Below are positions 1,838 through 16,771 of a stretch of 64,000 nt of DNA, piece after piece. Both the position numbers and the translations under genes were made by a program. The notes under the pieces are model-generated. The model saw only the letters and a program-made list of their open reading frames with translations. It was not told the origin of the DNA and did no database searches. Position 1 is the first letter of the stretch; every line of letters begins with the position of its first letter. The stretch spans positions 124,001-188,000 of the forward strand of contig JASJFT010000033.1 in assembly GCA_030770425.1 (NCBI GenBank). The letters run 5' to 3'. Source of the DNA: Darksidea phi (taxonomy: Eukaryota > Ascomycota > Dothideomycetes > Pleosporales > Lentitheciaceae).

Positions 1838-4018
1838 CTAGTAGCCACCATATCCACCATCTGTGGCCGATCCGTACCTGGTCCTAGCGCTACTCATCGA
1901 CGGTCCTCCGCCACCTCGTATATTTGACTGAAGCGTCGAGTGGAGCCGCGCTGGTGCTCGGTGCATCTGAGGCGAAGTGTTGGGCGCTGTCTCAAAGAAG
2001 CTGCTGTTGCCGTCCGAAGACGGACCACACTTGGAGGGATGTGCCGGCTTCCAAGCTCGCGTGAAGTAGCTCGATCTGACACCGGTGCGTGACTCCTCCG
2101 CATACTCAGACAGATTCTCAAGAATGCGAGCAAAGAACGACGTGTTCTCGTACTTGGTGCTATCTTGAGCTTCACCGGAGCCTTCCCCAATCGCTCCAAA
2201 GTAGCGGACCTTGTTACGGGCCGATGCTGTTGCTATCAAGCTCTTTGCGTACTCTTGTTGTCGAATCGGGCGCTGGCCATCGCGGAACCAGTTGACGAGC
2301 TTCTCTTCGTCGCCGCCGCGGAAGGTAAGCGAGGCTGTGGGATCATGCGCTGTGGGCATTGACTCTGCGAAAAAAGGGCCGTTGAGGTTCTGCCTTGTGG
2401 GTGCTTGCTGACCGAGGCCGTTCGCAATCTCACGGGCATGGCTTCGGCGAAATCCGTCTGGGTCGCTGAAGTACAAGTTCGCGGCAGGGGGGGCATTGAT
2501 TGCCGTACCGTCCGACTGCGAGTCTTCCGATGCCAGTGTCGTTGTTGGCATACGGGTGTATGGCGCCGCGTTGGCGTTGAGAGTGGACACACCACGATAC
2601 GGGTTCGCAACCGTTGGTCCTGGGGGAAATAGGGCTCGGATGTTGGTGTTCAACATTGGAACATCTGGTATTGCGACATGCTGCTCAGTCGGCAGACTAG
2701 GTCGACGCGCCTGGCCACCAAGTTCCGTCAGCCGGTTCTTTAGCTGCTGTCGGCTATGGATATCTTGCGGGGAGGGCGGCGCCTGTAGTCGGTCAATATT
2801 TATACGAAAACCTGGAATGGCGAAGATGCTAGATGCTTCTTCGCCAAACCCGACCTCGCGAAGATGCGTTGGAGTATCGTGCTCGCGCGGAAGCTCCCCA
2901 GGACGTATTGTCTCGGGCCGCTCCCGCTCGGGTTGTATGCCTGCCGGTCGAGGATCCAAGTTCGTCTTCTGATTTCCAGAGCGCCCCGAAGCAGGTGTTG
3001 ACGAGGCCGGGAACTGGTAACCAAAATCCATAGAGCCTACGTTGTCAATACCAGCAGCTCCTCTAAAGTTGAGAGAGGCCGGTATGGCCGGTACGGCCGG
3101 TTGCGGCGGTTTTGCGGGCGTCACGAACGGGTCCTCCAGATGTTCCCTAGTGATGTTCCTGGAAGAAGCGTATGCTGCAGTTCGTACGTCAGGCGTCTCG
3201 CGAGTCCTGTTCATGTGGGTAAAGGCGGGGAAGATCGAGCTAGGCGAACTAGATGCAGTGGAGAGCGAGGCCATTCTATCCGCTGCGGTGAGGAACGGAC
3301 GAGGCCTGGTGGTCTCGAGCTCCTCGTTCTTGCGACCGCATTCCCTGACGCGCTTCTCTTGCTCCTCAGCTGCAAATTTGAAATACTCGATTGAATTGTA
3401 TGAAAAGCCGGTTTTCGGGAGGCGTTCGGAAGCAAGCGACCCTTCAACCCTGCAACGATTGTGAGACCAGAGCCCAATGTTTTCCCACTGGAACGAAGAC
3501 GACGACCACTGGTGGGCAGACACGTCCCGATTTGGATGGCCTATGAAGACAATCTGACCATCGAAGTCTCCAGTCTGCTCGTGCAGACGTATCAGGTCTG
3601 GGAGCTGTCCGAAGACGCGCATGTAGTTCTCCACCACGTCAAACGGCGTATCTGTGGGACTGATATTGTCGCTATCTTCGCTTCGAAAGACCGGTGCTTC
3701 GTCCATGTTATCGGTCGCGACAGTGTTTGTTTGTGTAGAGAGGGTATCGAATGGAGACGTTTTGGAGTGAGCGAAGTGTGTAGAGGGCGGGCGAGAAATG
3801 TTGAAGGGCTGGAATTCGGAAACGTCAACAGGCGATGAAGAAGCATCAGCCTCAAAGTCGTCTTCACCGCCCAAGTCACTAGGCTGCAGCGGCCGCCAGT
3901 TCTTGTTGCCCTTCCTGTTACGACCAGACTGCAACCTCACAAAGCCTGCCAAAGGCATAGGGCCGGATGTCGGCCGCTCAAGGCCCTCAAGATCCTTCTT
4001 AGTGTAACCGCGCGCCAT
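1838..4018 (-). CDS. Ser/Pro-rich protein of unknown function
   Basis: An uninterrupted frame gives 726 residues from the ATG at 4018 (MARGYTKKDLEGLERPTSG). The frame stays open upstream to about 4366 with protein-like sequence but without an ATG. A good 3' splice site (TTTCCTGTAG, near 4297) lies in that stretch, so the real N-terminus is probably in an upstream exon I could not fix. The protein is mostly low-complexity and rich in Ser, Pro, Thr and Asn, as in disordered regulators. One compact ordered segment, about 115-190 residues after the ATG, runs from YMRVFGQLPDLIRLH through GQIVFIGHPNRDVSAHQW and FQWENIGLW and reads like a conserved domain, but I cannot name it. The C-terminus is Gly/Tyr-rich (DGGYGGY). 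Function unknown. Confidence 0.72.
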   Translation of the reverse strand: MARGYTKKDLEGLERPTSGPMPLAGFVRLQSGRNRKGNKNWRPLQPSDLGGEDDFEADASSSPVDVSEFQPFNISRPPSTHFAHSKTSPFDTLSTQTNTVATDNMDEAPVFRSEDSDNISPTDTPFDVVENYMRVFGQLPDLIRLHEQTGDFDGQIVFIGHPNRDVSAHQWSSSSFQWENIGLWSHNRCRVEGSLASERLPKTGFSYNSIEYFKFAAEEQEKRVRECGRKNEELETTRPRPFLTAADRMASLSTASSSPSSIFPAFTHMNRTRETPDVRTAAYASSRNITREHLEDPFVTPAKPPQPAVPAIPASLNFRGAAGIDNVGSMDFGYQFPASSTPASGRSGNQKTNLDPRPAGIQPERERPETIRPGELPREHDTPTHLREVGFGEEASSIFAIPGFRINIDRLQAPPSPQDIHSRQQLKNRLTELGGQARRPSLPTEQHVAIPDVPMLNTNIRALFPPGPTVANPYRGVSTLNANAAPYTRMPTTTLASEDSQSDGTAINAPPAANLYFSDPDGFRRSHAREIANGLGQQAPTRQNLNGPFFAESMPTAHDPTASLTFRGGDEEKLVNWFRDGQRPIRQQEYAKSLIATASARNKVRYFGAIGEGSGEAQDSTKYENTSFFARILENLSEYAEESRTGVRSSYFTRAWKPAHPSKCGPSSDGNSSFFETAPNTSPQMHRAPARLHSTLQSNIRGGGGPSMSSARTRYGSATDGGYGGY

Positions 4019-5840: not shown

Positions 5841-7511
5841 CTACCAAAGATCCCTGCTCGCCAGGCTTGCTCCACCAACATCAGTCGGTGTTCCAGGATC
5901 CTCTTTCTTTGCCGGTTTCCTGCTTCCATTTGGGACTGTCAAGTGCTTCCGACATGGTGGATCATGAGGACACACCTGAGTGTAGCCATGAAAACACGAA
6001 TTCCGACTGATATTGGTCGGTCCAGGCTCCGGGTAGATGTGCCGAACATTGACGCATCGCCAATTTCCGCATAGGTGGCTGGCATGCCACCACTCTTCGA
6101 CGATGCCTTCTTTCGCTTCCGAAGTGAGAAGGCCATCGAGTAGCATTATCACAAAGGCGAGGTTGATACAAAGATTGTGTCTTTCGTCCTCATGCCGGAA
6201 TCCAACACTTACTGTGATGGTCTGGGCGCTCCCAGTCCCACCGGAGCCTGTGTAAAGCCAGCATTCGTCTTCACTGTTTGTCGTTGCTAGGTCTCCGACG
6301 AACTTGTCCTTGAGCTGTCTCAGCTTTGTTGCCATTGTCGCAGCGTAAGTGTCGTAGAATAGCCTTTTTTTGTATTTCGTCTTCTCTCTTTGCTCTTTGT
6401 TCTTCCGCTGCTTCTCGTACAACCCGGCTAAGCTTGATGATAGCTTCAATGGCTCGGGAGATCGGGCCGCTTCGTATGATTGCGAGGTCAACGTCTGCGA
6501 GAAAACATGTGCTGAAGACGTCGTATTCTGGCTACACCCCGGCGTCTCTGGATCCTGGCCAAACACAGTCTCCTGCGAGAATGTAAAGCCAGGAAACTCG
6601 TCTTCTGGCTCCATCTTGATCAGACCGCTCTCTTCCCAATCTTCCCAGAATGGGATCTGGGAAGAGATGCGGGCCATGTCTGTTTCACCATCCTCGTCTT
6701 CCCTGTCAATGGCAATGTAGCAGTTGGTGCCATCCTCATCATCTAGTTCGTCATTCTCATCCAAAGGAATGCGGTTGGAGCCATTTTCAGGCTTTTGACC
6801 GTAAACAGGTGTGGTCCTGCTGACGTGGAGATTTGATCCTGGGGTGGGCGTGCTGTTAAGCGTTGGAGACCTAGAGGGTGTGACGAAGTCTTTGCAAATA
6901 TGCTCCTCATCATCGTCGTCTAAGAGCGCTCCACCGACAGATGATCCCGGTACTTCTTTGAAAGGAATACCGAAGTCATTGAAACGCAGTTCCAGTCTAG
7001 GTGAGAGTGAGCGACGCGGCGTTGATGATGCGGTAGATATTGACTCCCTAGAGCTTCGGTCGATCTCCTCATCATTGACGTCTAACTCCTCGAGAGGGGG
7101 ACTTGATGTGCGTATGGTGTCGTCATCGGTATCGTAGATATTGGCTTCTGACGACTCTGGAGTTGGTGTTCTGATTGGCGTTGAGGGCCTCAGTGGGGTC
7201 GGCGATCTCGTGCTATCGTCTTCATCATCAGAAATGAGGGATACCAATACATCGTCATGGATTGTGATCACGTTTCCAGTGACCAATTCGTTTAGTGTAA
7301 TAGGGTCATATCTTGTACCGCTACCTTTTCGTATGACCGCGGGCTCGTCGCCGTCTTCGATGATGATCGTTTCTCTAGGGTGCCTGTCGCTAGTAGCTAA
7401 AGCATGTTCTTCGTGTCTCTTGACTGGTCGATCTTCGGGCTCGTCGTCTAGTGAATCCTCGCTCCGTTGGCGCTTGCTGTAGACCGACGGCCGCGACTCA
7501 TGTTGTCCCAT
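5841..7511 (-). CDS. acidic disordered protein with C-terminal zinc-binding-loop homing-endonuclease-like domain
   Basis: A single open frame of 556 residues starts at an ATG (MGQHESRPSVYSKRQR). Residues 1 to about 370 are acidic and Ser/Thr/Pro-rich (DDEPEDRP, SDDEDDSTRSPTP) with a basic KRHEEH patch, so probably disordered and nuclear. After a basic coiled segment (EKQRKNKEQREKTKYKKR) comes a Cys/His domain: CWLYTG, then WWHASHLCGNWRCVNVRHI, then NISRNSCFHG and CPHDPPCRKH. The order H..C-x3-C..H, N-x2-R-x2-C, C-x-H-x3-C is that of the zinc-binding loop region of His-Me homing endonucleases (Pfam zf-His_Me_endon). In filamentous fungi such domains occur in non-mobile nuclear proteins. Nuclease activity is not shown. 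A GTAAGT inside the domain could be a donor, but reading through keeps a coherent domain, so I treat the gene as intronless. Confidence 0.75.
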   Translation of the reverse strand: MGQHESRPSVYSKRQRSEDSLDDEPEDRPVKRHEEHALATSDRHPRETIIIEDGDEPAVIRKGSGTRYDPITLNELVTGNVITIHDDVLVSLISDDEDDSTRSPTPLRPSTPIRTPTPESSEANIYDTDDDTIRTSSPPLEELDVNDEEIDRSSRESISTASSTPRRSLSPRLELRFNDFGIPFKEVPGSSVGGALLDDDDEEHICKDFVTPSRSPTLNSTPTPGSNLHVSRTTPVYGQKPENGSNRIPLDENDELDDEDGTNCYIAIDREDEDGETDMARISSQIPFWEDWEESGLIKMEPEDEFPGFTFSQETVFGQDPETPGCSQNTTSSAHVFSQTLTSQSYEAARSPEPLKLSSSLAGLYEKQRKNKEQREKTKYKKRLFYDTYAATMATKLRQLKDKFVGDLATTNSEDECWLYTGSGGTGSAQTITVSVGFRHEDERHNLCINLAFVIMLLDGLLTSEAKEGIVEEWWHASHLCGNWRCVNVRHIYPEPGPTNISRNSCFHGYTQVCPHDPPCRKHLTVPNGSRKPAKKEDPGTPTDVGGASLASRDLW

Positions 7512-9995
7512 TACGCCGAATAGCTTGTCAACCTTGCCCTACCAGAATCATAAGTATTGTAGTACCCGACGCAAGTACGTAGGAAAATAAATGTATCCTT
7601 GTCATAAGTGAGAAGCACAAAAGATCCGCCAGCGAGTTCACAATACAGTTCATACCATTTAAGGTAGCACCCCCTGGGCGCTCTGGCTAATGAGAGTAGA
7701 GTATAGTAGGACTGGCGTTCTGCAATTCAATGTCCAGAGTCACTAGCAGTTGCTGTGAAGTATTGCGGAGAGTGGAGGCAGAAAGGATATCTTGACGTCG
7801 TTGGCCTTCAGGGTATTTGGACAGATCTGTTTCTCGAAAGAGGGTACTATACTAGTGGCAACCTTACGGCGTTGCAGACTTGCGCACCTGTCTCACACCG
7901 CTTCTCAAGGGCGAAAGCTTGCTGCAGGTTGAGGTGAGGGTGCAGCGCAAGTCTGTCAGCCTAAGGGTAAGTGTACGTGGCCGCCTGTTCTCCCTTCCGA
8001 TCCTCTATTTGCAAGACCATTCTTTTGATTATTACTTTTTGAACTGCCTGAGGAGAAGGGAGTGTAAAGCAATGGCACGGCTCCAATGAAAGAGTTGCTG
8101 GAGCGGACGTGTAGAACGAGGAATAAGAAAACTTCCATCGTGGCGTGAGGCAGTAGGGAGCTCCCCATACCTTCCCCTCGAAGTAAGAGTGAGAGTATCA
8201 GAGAGTTTAGTCGACCATTCTATCTGCAAGGACGACTGGATGATACCTTCTGATATACAGAGTTGCTTGCAGAGTTGCGGGCTGAAGCTTGCTGGCCATC
8301 TCTTCCGGCTGTGGGGAGAAGCCGACCCTCGAGGAAAAGGCCAGCAGACATGTGCTTCAACAGCGAAGGCCTACCGACATACATGTCTTCTTCCGAGCAA
8401 GATAGACGATGGGCCGGATCTATAGTCTGCCGTGAAGCTTGCGATGCACAGGTCCCACCAACTACGCCACGCGAGGCTGGAGGGGCACGGCGTATCGTAC
8501 CGTGTTCCGTGCGGCCGTTCAGCCTCGATTCTCTTTCGCAGTCGGACTTGCATACAAAACAAGTTGGACGACCGACTGTGCAGCTATGCATGCTTTCGCG
8601 TAGAGTATTGCGACGGTCACGCCCGAGGGTCTCGACGGTCGGGAACGTGGATGGCGGACCGGTTACACCGCGCTTGGGAATTTGGGAACGGGACGGCCTT
8701 TAACGTCTCCCTAAGGCGTCCGCATAGACAACCGCGAGGCGTTGTAGCTGGCGCTATCGCCCGAGACAGCAGCCATCGCTACCCCGAATAATCGAGAGAC
8801 TTCTAAAGATACAATGTGCGCGATTCAGAGCCAACGTCACTCGCAGCTGGCTGCAACATCGGGGCGGACGACCTTTCCACGTAAGCGGCCATTAAATAAA
8901 GGTCAAAGGGCTGGTGATGACTCAAACCTGCATCCCTCCACAACCAGGAGCGCATCCTGCCACGGTACTGAAGTGCGAATTGCCCAGATGAGGCTACGTC
9001 TGTGCCAGACCTCACGCACGACGAGGCCTCGCTCTTCAGCACCTCAGCCACAGAGCGACCGTTGGCGGCGTTCAAGAGTCCTTTATATCACGGCGACGAG
9101 TGAAGATGGCGGAAGGACGCGGTCATGAAACAGAGGAGAGCGTTTAGTGGACGAGGAGGATGCATCGCGTGCTCTGGTTCGCCGGTGGAGGGCGATGTTT
9201 CATGGCGGCCGCTTCGGGCGGATGGCGGTTGGCTACTACCGCCGGCCCATCTCTCAGGCACCACCGCCCGTCCCCCTTAGCGGTCACGACATGCTACCTT
9301 CTACCTTGCTACGATGCTGCGCACCGAGCTCCTCCAACAGCGCCCTCGTCGTGCCTGCGCCTTTGGAGGCCTGAAACAGCTGACAATTAGCCCCGCCGGA
9401 GTGAATGGCTGCCCACACAGCCCGCAATGCGCCCGCCCGCGCCGGCCACCTGTCCGGCTGCCACTGTTCATGCAGCCGGCGAGCCCCAGGCTTTGCCAAT
9501 GTCAATGCGGCCTTCGATAAAGTATTTTAATCTGCCCTCCTCCAGCATGGACGCAGATGTATCCCCTTGGATGCTAGCCCCCCCAGCCTCCAGACCCGTC
9601 CGACGATCCCCCGCCTGTCGCATTCCGCCAATTGCCTGCGCGCGCTGCGGAAGTCTTCCCTGCTGCGCCGACGCATACATCTGCCTTCGATCCGGCGTCT
9701 CGTATCGCCTTGATCACAAATCGCTCTTCAATTTTGGTTGAATAGCCCTGGCCGAGCCGTCCCTCCCTCCGTCACCGAGAACCCGTCTTCACATTGTGGA
9801 ATCACAATATCACGACCCGGCGGTTGGAACGAGCTTCTTCGTTGTGCTAGCACCCTTGTGCGGTTTGCCTTTCTTTGACATATATTTCGCTCTTTATTCC
9901 CACCCCCTCCCCCTGAACATAAATAATACAACCACATCTTTCCAAGGACTCGCAACAACCCCTCGGGAAAACAACACAACGCACGCGCAATTACA
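7512..9995. other. 2.5-kb divergent intergenic region
   Basis: It separates the minus-strand zinc-loop gene from the plus-strand lactonase. Many medium frames overlap on both strands (8.2-8.8 kb, 8.8-9.7 kb) with compositions like random GC-rich sequence. None starts well or shows a domain. A CATATATTTC element near 9878 and the CT-rich, A-rich leader just before 9996 look like the promoter and 5' UTR of the lactonase gene. Confidence 0.4.
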
Positions 9996-13046: not shown

Positions 13047-13280
13047 CGTGGTGGTGTTGATGGGTCGTCTCGGAGGTGCGGAGATAACGACGTGTGAGTG
13101 GTTCGCAGGAACTACGGCGGGGCATGCCCACCAAAGACGCACATGTCTTAGTCAGGCGCCTTACATCTTACATATACATGCACCAGCTCCGCCACCTCGA
13201 GGTACGTCAATCGGAAGACTCAAAGCTCTGCAACGCTTGACAACCGCAACAGTCTGAACATCTAGTTAAATTTTCTCACC
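13047..13280. promoter_or_regulatory. short divergent promoter region
   Basis: Only about 230 bases separate the start codons of the HAD hydrolase (minus) and the zinc-cluster factor (plus), so both promoters must lie here or overlap the first exons. No clear TATA box is seen. Confidence 0.5.
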
Positions 13281-15821
13281 ATGGCCGAGACCAGCCCCGA
13301 GAGTAGCAATGGGTCGACCGCTCCACCTTCAGCTGCTGATATACTCGCCCGAACCCCCATCACACGAGCTAGACCTCAACTAAGCTGTACGCCGTGTCGC
13401 CAAGGAAAGCTGAAATGCAACCGTGAACATCCCGTCTGCAACCAGTGTGTGAAGCGTTTGCGACACGCCGCTTGCCACTATCCACCACCGCCCACGAAGA
13501 GCAAACAAGCACAGAATATGCGGGGCAAGTACCCGTGGTAACCCGCCAAGTCCGAGACATTCACTAACTTGAATTCCTCTTTAGGTAGGATTAGGAACCT
13601 CGAAAATCTGGTAGTAAATCTGATCCAGCAGAAAGAGCAAGAGGGTCTCAATGAATTGGCTGGACAAGTGCAGAGCCAGAATCAAAATGGTAATGCCAGA
13701 AGAGACGTCGAGGAGGTTGCCCCTGACACATTTGGCAAACTACGTATCAGCAACTCTGGGAACGAAACAAACTACGTAGGAGCGGGTCATTGGAGTTCGT
13801 TACTAAAGGAGATTGAAGAGGTCAAGAACAGTTTGGACGAGGATGATGTGGAAGAGACCCAAGAGAGTGTGTGGGACGATGCCGCTGCGCGGTCTTCGAT
13901 CACCTTTGGAATGCCGAAGCCTGTCACAAAAGCACAGCTGATTGAACAGATGCCTTCCAAAGACGAGGTGGATCGCCTTCTACCTCTCTGGTTTAACAGG
14001 TACGCACACTGGGTCACCTTGAAAGGTCTCGACTAAACAACGTAGCGCCGACCCCCTACTATACATTATGCATACCCCGAGCTTTCAAGAAGAGTACAAG
14101 CAATTCTGGAATGATCCCTCGTCTGCTTCAGCAATGTGGATAGCACTTCTTTATTCCACCATGGCGCTAGGAATCATCCTCGGTCCTCGTAACCCAGGCA
14201 TCAATGCTTATGCAGCTACCTACAATCTAAACAATCGCAGTGACTACCTTTCGACCTCCATAGACAGATTTCAGCAGCTTGCATCTTCTGCTTTAGTACT
14301 GGGAGACATTACAAAAAGCCAGCCATACACACTTGAGACCTTGATGATATACTCCGAATGCGAATTTCTGAGACGGGATGACAACCATGCAAAGGTCTGG
14401 CTCATGCACGGTGTTGCTTTACGCACGGCAATGAGAATGGGCTATCACAGAGATCCAGCAAACTTCAAGGGCATGTCACCTTTCCAGGGAGAAATGCGTC
14501 GGAGAGCCTGGCATGTCATCAATATGACCGATACTCTCATCTCTTTCGCTATCGGCCTTCCAGCTCAAGTCCGTCGCGTCGAGAGCGACGTCCGCATCCC
14601 TCGAAACCTATACGATGTCGATCTATCCCCGGATATGACCGAACTGCCAAAAGAACGCCCAGACACGGAGATTACGCCAGCTTCGTACTTCAAGGCAAAA
14701 GCCAGAGTGTGCGCGGTCTTTGCTGAAGCTGCAGAGTTATCTCAAAAGATCACGCCGCCAAGATATGCCACGATTGTGGCACTCGAGAAGAGGCTAGAAG
14801 ACGCCCATGATGCAATACCCGAAACGATGCGGGCCCGTCCGATGGAAGCATGCATTACGGACCCTCCTGTGCTTGTCATGAGCCGGCTCAACGTTGAACT
14901 TCTGTATTTAAAAACCCGACTGGTCCTTCATCGCAACTACTTTACTGCAGGTCAGTCAGACCCTAGGTTTGCAGGCTCGCAGAAAATATCTGTAGATACT
15001 GCGATTAAAATCCTCAATTGGAACAGAGTCATCTTTCACGCATGTCAACCAGGTGGACAGTTACACAAAGTATGGTGGTACATGTCTTCGCTTCAGACGT
15101 ACGACTTCTTGCTTGCTGCGATGATACTGTGTTTGGAGTTGCACCATATCAAGGCAGTAGACAAGTCATCGACAAGGGTTGCCGAGTTGTCTGGCATTCT
15201 GCAAACTACCCACGATATCTGGGCAAATCACCCGAACCGCTTCCGAGAGTCGGTCAGAGGAGCTGGAATATTGAAAGCCATGTTGACGAATAGTTCATCG
15301 CCTGGACAATCACAGAATATCGCGATAAATTCCATCTTTCAAAGAATGGAGAAGAGTGAGTGCGCAATGCGACTAAGGTTCTGAGCTAACCATCAAACAC
15401 AGACGTTAGCAGCCCACCTAAGGAACAAACGCCTGAATCTCTCACAGAAGAACCCGCACCACAGATCTGGGGCACATGGCCAACCGCAGACTTGCCGTCA
15501 CTGGACATGCAGGACATGCAGGATATGCCTTCCGAAATCGACTGGGTAAGCTTACCACTGATGTCCGCACTTGACCATTTCTGACCAAGCGGCTAGTCAC
15601 TTTTTGATTCGACGATGCAACACCAGGATCACATGCTACCTTCACAGATGTGGGCATCCAACAACAATGCCACAATGGAGTCTTGGATGGGTGCGACGTC
15701 CAGTGTCGACTACATGATTGCCAATGGCGTTGAGGGCTTCCAAGACCTCCAGGATCCGATGCACATCTACGGGCCTTCGGGCCTCGTGACAACCCCGTTT
15801 TCTACACATATGATGCATTGA
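13281..15821 (+). CDS. Zn2Cys6 transcription factor with fungal-specific regulatory domain
   Basis: Five exons: 13281-13528, 13589-13999, 14046-15355, 15403-15545 and 15597-15821 (778 residues); every junction keeps frame. The zinc cluster is at residues 36-65, C36-x2-C39-x6-C46-x6-C53-x2-C56-x8-C65, with the basic loop RQGKLKCNRE. A short coiled linker (IRNLENLVVNLIQQKEQ) follows, the usual dimerisation element. Exons 2/3 join to give LPLWFNSADPLLYIMHTPSF, the hallmark start of the fungal-specific TF domain. Exon 3 carries its core (YSECEFLRRDDNHAKVWLMH, AMRMGYHRDP, EMRRRAWHVINMTDTL). The tail is Met/Gln/Asn-rich and may be an activation region. The protein is nuclear; target genes cannot be read from sequence. 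For the exon 2 acceptor I used the second of two nearby AGs, because the first would create a stop. Confidence 0.92.
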
Positions 15822-16385: not shown

Positions 16386-16456
16386 GGGAACAATATTAAG
16401 GAGAACAATATTAAGGAGAACAATAGTGAGAACAATATTAAGAGGTACAATAGTAA
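16386..16456 (+). repeat. 15-bp-periodic array of AACAAT (HMG-box-like) sites
   Basis: AACAAT occurs at 16389, 16404, 16419 and 16431, with a variant TACAAT at 16446. The repeat unit is about GAGAACAATATTAAG, and the steps are 15, 15, 12 and 15 bp. AACAAT/ATTGTT is the core bound by SOX/MATA-HMG type proteins, including fungal mating-type HMG regulators. Binding here is inferred. The array ends about 200 bp before the ATG at 16658. Confidence 0.75.
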
Positions 16457-16559
16457 GACCCCTTGCCCACCCCACATCGCATTTCTCCTTTGACTTTCCC
16501 TACCATCAAAGAACTGTACTCACCTTGTGACAACTGCTTGCCAAGCGGGTCATTCCAGC

Positions 16560-16567
16560 ATAAATAA
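16560..16567 (+). promoter_or_regulatory. TATA-like element
   Basis: ATAAATAA lies 91-98 bp upstream of the ATG at 16658 and downstream of the AACAAT array, a sensible position for the TATA box of this short gene. Confidence 0.45.
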
Positions 16568-16657: not shown

Positions 16658-16771
16658 ATGCTCGGACCTACGCCAGGAGGCGGCTGCACCGTCATGCGTG
16701 GCTCTAACTCGGGAGTGGGCTACATCGTCATGTATGGGCCCATGCCGGGCAGCCACTGTATCATCTACTAG
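16658..16771 (+). CDS. 37-residue three-repeat CaaX peptide, candidate hybrid-type pheromone precursor
   Basis: After the initiator Met the ORF is exactly three 12-residue units: first LGPTPGGGCTVM, second RGSNSGVGYIVM, third YGPMPGSHCIIY, then TAG. All share the pattern xG(P/S)x(P/S)Gxx(C/Y)(T/I)(V/I)x. The last four residues, CIIY, form a C-terminal CaaX box, the signal for farnesylation. The first unit ends GCTVM, itself a canonical CaaX-type motif. Fungal a-factor-like lipopeptide precursors are short and end in CaaX. The h-type precursor HPP1 of Trichoderma reesei carries three copies of (L/I)GC(T/S)VM, one at the C-terminus, which is the same design. Unlike HPP1, no Lys-Arg Kex2 site is seen; only single Arg follows unit 1. 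Promoter elements (AACAAT array, TATA, leader) sit upstream. The ORF is seen; the pheromone role is inferred. Chance origin is unlikely but not excluded. Confidence 0.6.
   Translation: MLGPTPGGGCTVMRGSNSGVGYIVMYGPMPGSHCIIY

Follow-up and report, generated by a model that had tools for sequence, protein, structure and literature searches.

Does a 37-codon open reading frame (ORF) in the Dothideomycete Darksidea phi encode a mating pheromone? a-Type pheromones are hard to find outside the Sordariomycetes: each gene is very small, with almost no conserved sequence. A candidate from a Leotiomycete was called the first a-factor from Pezizomycotina other than Sordariomycetes, and in the same account its mating-type-specific expression is unsupported (PMC10569646). 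In the open-licence literature that we searched, no title reports an a-factor from any other class in this subphylum. The ORF, which we will call P0001, lies in a window of 64,000 nucleotides, and it is probably a mating-pheromone gene of one mating type, of an unusual kind.

A short ORF built of three repeats

The initial annotation described P0001 as three 12-residue repeats within a 37-residue ORF, and our analysis bears this out. The features of the ORF in the window are as follows (the units are given in the period-36 register):

16658..16771, + strand: P0001, 37-codon ORF including the stop TAG (translation of the window sequence)
16658..16693, + strand: repeat unit 1, MLGPTPGGGCTV
16694..16729, + strand: repeat unit 2, MRGSNSGVGYIV, with Tyr replacing Cys
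16730..16765, + strand: repeat unit 3, MYGPMPGSHCII, which together with the Tyr at 16766-16768 gives the C-terminal CIIY
16560..16566, + strand: TATA-like ATAAATA, 98 bp 5' of the P0001 ATG

The translation is MLGPTPGGGCTVMRGSNSGVGYIVMYGPMPGSHCIIY. In register, it reads MLGPTPGGGCTV / MRGSNSGVGYIV / MYGPMPGSHCII / Y and then the stop, and an ATG opens each unit. Unit 1 is followed by Met-Arg and hence reads C-T-V-M-R. The three 36-bp copies have diverged, with an identity at period 36 of 40/72 bases. None of 20,000 codon shuffles reached this score; across the whole window, 0.23% of the 108-base segments did. Immediately 5' of the ATG and 3' of the stop, the similarity at period 36 is at background. 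Because the signal is bounded by the start and stop codons, the repeat is part of the coding frame and not of the surrounding DNA. By exact-residue periodicity, P0001 ranks second among the window's ORFs of at least 30 residues, after a low-complexity Ser/Thr/Lys ORF.

The codon use of P0001 is gene-like. Its GC3 is 0.75, compared to a G+C content of about 0.48 in the 200-base flanks. As a control we used 134 small ORFs drawn from regions that we assumed to be intergenic, a set that still contains P0001 and its internal ATGs; two of the 134 score as high as P0001 by codon log-likelihood, and nine do by a CAI-like measure. The start context is AACAGAATGC, and there is no other ATG in the 100 bases before it.

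P0001 has some features of a-factor-like precursors: it is short (37 residues, under 100) and it has a Cys at position -4. Ile-Ile follows this Cys, and then Tyr as the X residue. The N-terminus is not rich in Ser or Thr, and GY is absent beside the terminal CaaX-like motif. The window has 447 ORFs that begin with ATG and encode 20-60 residues; 17 of these have Cys at -4, and two (including P0001) end in C-aliphatic-aliphatic-X. Tyr had been flagged as an unusual X residue, and we agree that CIIY is a doubtful CaaX. GGTase-I is described as accepting Leu, Phe, or Met at X, and FTase as flexible there (PMC9231725). We found no report of CIIY being tested as a CaaX in the literature that we searched. 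Reading donors and acceptors by eye, we found no intron whose removal would improve the CaaX ending of P0001, and no signal sequence is evident by eye. P0001 has no hit to any Pfam family at E ≤ 1. Among the best-scoring candidates for a second copy in the genome, the sole match was P0001 itself.

A promoter motif in common with STE2 and RAM1

About 210-270 bp upstream of P0001, the window contains a tandem array:

16388..16457, + strand: five GAACAATA-type sites in tandem in the P0001 promoter, a candidate MAT1-2-1 (HMG) operator
16388, 16403, and 16430, + strand: GAACAATATTAAG sites
16418, + strand: GAACAATAGTGAG site
16445, + strand: GTACAATAGTAAG site

The three copies of GAACAATATTAAG in this array are the only ones in the genome of 51.35 Mb. 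We derived the motif GAACAATANTAA from the promoters of P0001 and of an ORF on contig C117 (described below), and we ran one search of the genome with it. There were 28 matches in 51.35 Mb, or roughly 0.0005 per 1-kb promoter, and the reversed-pattern control gave 15. Within 600 bp of the matches, we counted five GAACAATA sites on contig C89, four at P0001, two at the C117 ORF, and one at each of the remaining 20 places. Thus, around the 28 matches, only P0001, the C89 gene (STE2), and the C117 ORF have at least two. If the 28 matches were placed at random, 0.009 pairs within 600 bp would be expected. Since the motif was written after seeing the promoters of P0001 and C117, the only independent evidence is from STE2 and RAM1, whose promoters were recovered without having been used in writing it:

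C89:28965-29278: STE2 promoter motif (L042; GAACAATANTAA matches)
C235:261178: RAM1-type CaaX farnesyltransferase beta (L053; single GAACAATANTAA match)

The C89 gene is STE2, the alpha-pheromone receptor (PF02116, E = 7.8e-78), and five GAACAATA sites lie within 1.2 kb 5' of its ATG. The closest solved relative of the protein from C235 is Ram1 (4l9p, E = 4.8e-107). The motif is 86 bp before the assigned ATG of RAM1, with a second GAACAAT at -54; these offsets may change because there is an extra ATG within the 100 bases before the assigned start. To see what lies at the places with a single match, we gave the largest ORFs from 18 of these 20 places to Pfam (20 ORFs), and RAM1 was the only evident pheromone-pathway gene among them. 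The two places left out, L036 and L054, are A+T-rich: their G+C content is 0.20 and 0.25 over 3 kb, while the other loci that we extracted are near 0.5. This might reflect repeat-induced mutation.

A STE3-type receptor, whose presence had been proposed as a check on the pheromone reading, is encoded in the genome. STE3 is the receptor of the opposite cell type, and there is no AACAATA in 1 kb of its promoter. TGAAACA boxes are absent from the 1-kb promoters of P0001, STE3, the C117 ORF, and a frame on contig C429 (see below).

In ascomycetes, the control of a-specific genes by HMG proteins has ancient roots (for instance, a2 of Candida). In Podospora, the MAT1-2 HMG protein FPR1 is reported to activate the lipophilic pheromone, PRE2 (STE2-type), and RAM1 (PMC3125171). 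For MAT1-2-1 of Fusarium graminearum, two protein-binding arrays gave a likely core of ATTGTT, which is the complement of AACAAT (PMC4559316). AACAAT is also the proposed site, without a test in that account, for MAT1-2-1 of Penicillium chrysogenum (PMC10512297), and in Verticillium dahliae it is reported from the VdPpg2 promoter, where MAT proteins bind it (PMC11077750). The related core described for P. anserina is A(A/T)CAA(A/T)G, with ATCAAAG in the pheromone genes (PMC3730723); it differs from AACAAT, so the exact site varies between fungi. Because the genes with our motif match the set controlled by the Podospora HMG protein, and because the motif contains the AACAAT core measured for MAT1-2-1 of F. 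graminearum, P0001 is very probably controlled by MAT1-2.

We looked for the mating-type genes as well:

C252:4600-14500: candidate MAT1-2-1 (L074), with an HMG box split by an intron

The candidate ORF is 1.3 kb from an Exo_endo_phos/GRF ORF, and we read the HMG-box gene and its neighbor as a MAT1-2 locus beside APN2. The promoter of the candidate MAT1-2-1 has no GAACAATA cluster, and the sequence of this gene looks like that of a Dothideomycete. We also sought rDNA as a marker of the lineage: a 5.8S query had no match, and an Rfam search in which 39 of 1495 candidates were scored gave a single match above the cut-off, which we read as divergent. A search of the genome for the MAT1-1 alpha box, run without a working positive control, had no match. 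For the alpha-factor gene, the pattern CxxxGQxCW gave six matches, none of them clustered, and there were no repeats in the three that were examined further.

Paired ACAATAYTAA sites on contigs C146, C105, and C1 (from the 100 places listed out of 134; a wider pair on C223 was left out) lack GAACAATA pairs, and we rejected them. The site on C146 (L071, at about 2950-3040) is a minisatellite with unit CACAATACTAAGGTGGAGGAAGATTGGG that lies partly within an ORF and carries the motif core. It seems to be unrelated to mating.

A second candidate, and comparison with described precursors

The genome has 14 matches to CTVM followed by a stop, and the reversed-pattern control has 6. Two of the 14 read TGG instead of a stop, and three look like the C-termini of Rho, Ras, and RING proteins. 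The narrower pattern GYxCxxM-stop has two matches, and its control has none:

C117:70833-71264: ORF of 143 residues (L009/L028), ending in APTGGYNCTVM and a stop
C429:232335-232358: second GYxCTVM-stop frame (L013/L029), ending in SGEGYHCTVM and a stop

From its sequence, the C117 ORF looks like a conventional a-factor. Its GY motif and CTVM ending are like those of the a-factor-like precursors described from Sordariomycetes and Leotiomycetes (PMC10569646). An internal ATG would give a Ser/Thr-rich form of 58 residues; the longer reading, of 143 residues, has gene-like codons as well. The upstream 1 kb contains GAACAATAGTAA, GAACAATACTAA, and a third AACAATA. We set aside the C429 frame as a second a-factor because it contains no ATG from the preceding in-frame stop to its end, and because its promoter has only ACAATATTAA at -11. 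An intron would be required to make it a gene; otherwise it is a relic.

The end of unit 1 of P0001 (PTPGGGCTVM) and the end of the C117 ORF (PTGGYNCTVM) agree at 3 of the 7 residues preceding CTVM, which was the best of the 14 ends that we compared. This hints at a common origin.

The closest architectures to that of P0001 are VdPpg2 of V. dahliae and HPP1 of Trichoderma reesei. As it is described, VdPpg2 resembles P0001 in being short and made of tandem modules (and has no predicted signal peptide), with internal CaaX-like motifs, a C-terminal CaaX, and an AACAAT promoter bound by MAT proteins (PMC11077750). We compared them by that description: VdPpg2 has 66 residues and five 11-residue repeats (PMC11077750), while P0001 has three 12-residue units. 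HPP1 is likewise described as having three modules, the last of them C-terminal, with Cys at -4 and no signal sequence (PMC3068285). A further mark of the h-type is that it is required for male fertility. The rhodotorucine A precursor also has tandem pheromone modules with CaaX-like spacers between them, but it belongs to a basidiomycete system, and again we compare it by description (PMC3068285). The a-factors described from Sordariomycetes and Leotiomycetes start with a Ser/Thr-rich stretch and end in GY-CaaX, and P0001 has neither; in the same account, these features are common, not strict (PMC10569646). A promoter element in common with other a-cell genes is another mark of a-factor-like precursors, and this P0001 does have, in the motif at STE2, RAM1, and the C117 ORF.

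The initial annotation went further and placed P0001 with the h-type pheromones such as HPP1. This assignment fails: none of the three units (GGCTVM, GYIVM, and HCIIY) fits the h-type consensus (LI)GC(TS)VM (PMC3068285), and the terminal motif is CIIY. The GCTVM of unit 1, which had been taken as a match, fits only in part because Gly precedes GC, and neither unit 2 nor unit 3 fits. As had been noted, P0001 has no Kex2-type dibasic site, unlike T. reesei HPP1. Among h-type precursors, Kex2 sites are reported only for T. reesei HPP1 and are described as not essential, and processing of HPP1 that exposes the internal CaaX was proposed by analogy with rhodotorucine A (PMC3068285). What stands of the earlier proposal is a repeat-built mating pheromone: the promoter motif in common with STE2, RAM1, and the C117 ORF argues strongly for it. 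The failed HPP1 consensus and the unusual Tyr speak against the proposal as it was made.

Explanations for the locus

In our view, P0001 most likely encodes an a-type pheromone precursor built of repeats. We favor, by some distance short of certainty, the full statement that it is a MAT1-2 cell-type-specific gene, most likely encodes an a-type lipopeptide pheromone precursor, and is co-regulated with STE2, RAM1, and the C117 ORF. In the mechanism that we propose, the five GAACAATA-type sites are occupied by MAT1-2-1 or a partner HMG protein, which activates P0001 along with STE2, RAM1, and the C117 a-factor candidate. The peptide, with its three 12-residue modules, would then take the a-factor route: a module cysteine would be prenylated, the last three residues removed, and the product methylated and exported. 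It would be sensed by STE3 of the opposite mating type. Two modules could yield a lipidated Cys, the terminal CIIY and, if cleavage exposes CTVM, unit 1; unit 2 has Tyr for Cys and would not be lipidated.

Several observations count against this explanation. CIIY is an unusual CaaX, unit 2 lacks a Cys, and a dibasic site of the Kex2 type is missing. The reversed pattern had 15 matches to the 28 of the motif, and the promoter of the candidate MAT1-2-1 lacks the cluster. Also, in V. dahliae, AACAAT is reported to mark VdPre1 as well, and both MAT proteins bind (PMC11077750). A separate a-factor gene had been named in advance as a finding that would speak against P0001, and in the C117 ORF there is indeed a separate, more conventional candidate. 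P0001 might thus be under MAT1-2 control without being a working lipopeptide pheromone: it could be a decaying or spare copy, with C117 doing the job, or it could encode some other a-cell-specific peptide. The C117 ORF has the ending of described a-factors (PMC10569646) and carries the same promoter motif, CIIY is a doubtful CaaX, and the Cys of unit 2 was lost or never present. But the P0001 and STE2 arrays are equally rich (four and five GAACAATA sites), the frame is open with gene-like codons, and position -4 of the peptide is a Cys. On balance we consider a spare copy or other peptide somewhat unlikely.

It is improbable that the promoter is a true MAT target whose transcript is not translated as P0001, or that it serves another RNA. 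P0001 is short, as such a reading would have it, but its ATG is the first after the TATA-like box, the repeat coincides with the start and stop of a frame with gene-like codons, and no gene at 15.8-20.7 kb of the window has Pfam support among the subset of ORFs given to Pfam. Chance, in the form of a diverged minisatellite ORF beside an unrelated tandem repeat in which AACAATA occurs by accident, seems very improbable. The promoter array is itself a tandem repeat, the C146 minisatellite shows ACAATACTAA inside an ORF, and a Cys at -4 is found in 17/447 small ORFs. Against this, STE2 and RAM1 were returned by a motif that was not fitted to them, and the motif is rare in promoters.

We can tentatively suggest, as a possibility, that the a-cell genes are marked by a single MAT1-2-1 operator, GAACAATANTAAG, and that they include genes for two lipopeptide pheromones of different structure, the conventional one ending in GYNCTVM and P0001. 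From its internal C-TVM-Arg and terminal CIIY modules, P0001 would release at most two lipidated mini-peptides, and the use of CaaX would extend to a Tyr ending. It is a promoter signature, not peptide sequence, that links the two candidates to STE2 and to a farnesyltransferase gene in one genome. The presence of GAACAATANTAA at STE2 and RAM1 suggests an a-cell operator that could be used in genome scans, and if this is true, GAACAATANTAAG would offer a route to a-factors in fungal classes where they are still hidden.

Upstream of P0001, on the same strand, is a gene for a regulator with Zn2Cys6 and Fungal_trans domains (window 13266-15384). On the opposite strand, at 5841-7538, a 565-residue ORF matches zf-His_Me_endon above the Pfam cut-off.
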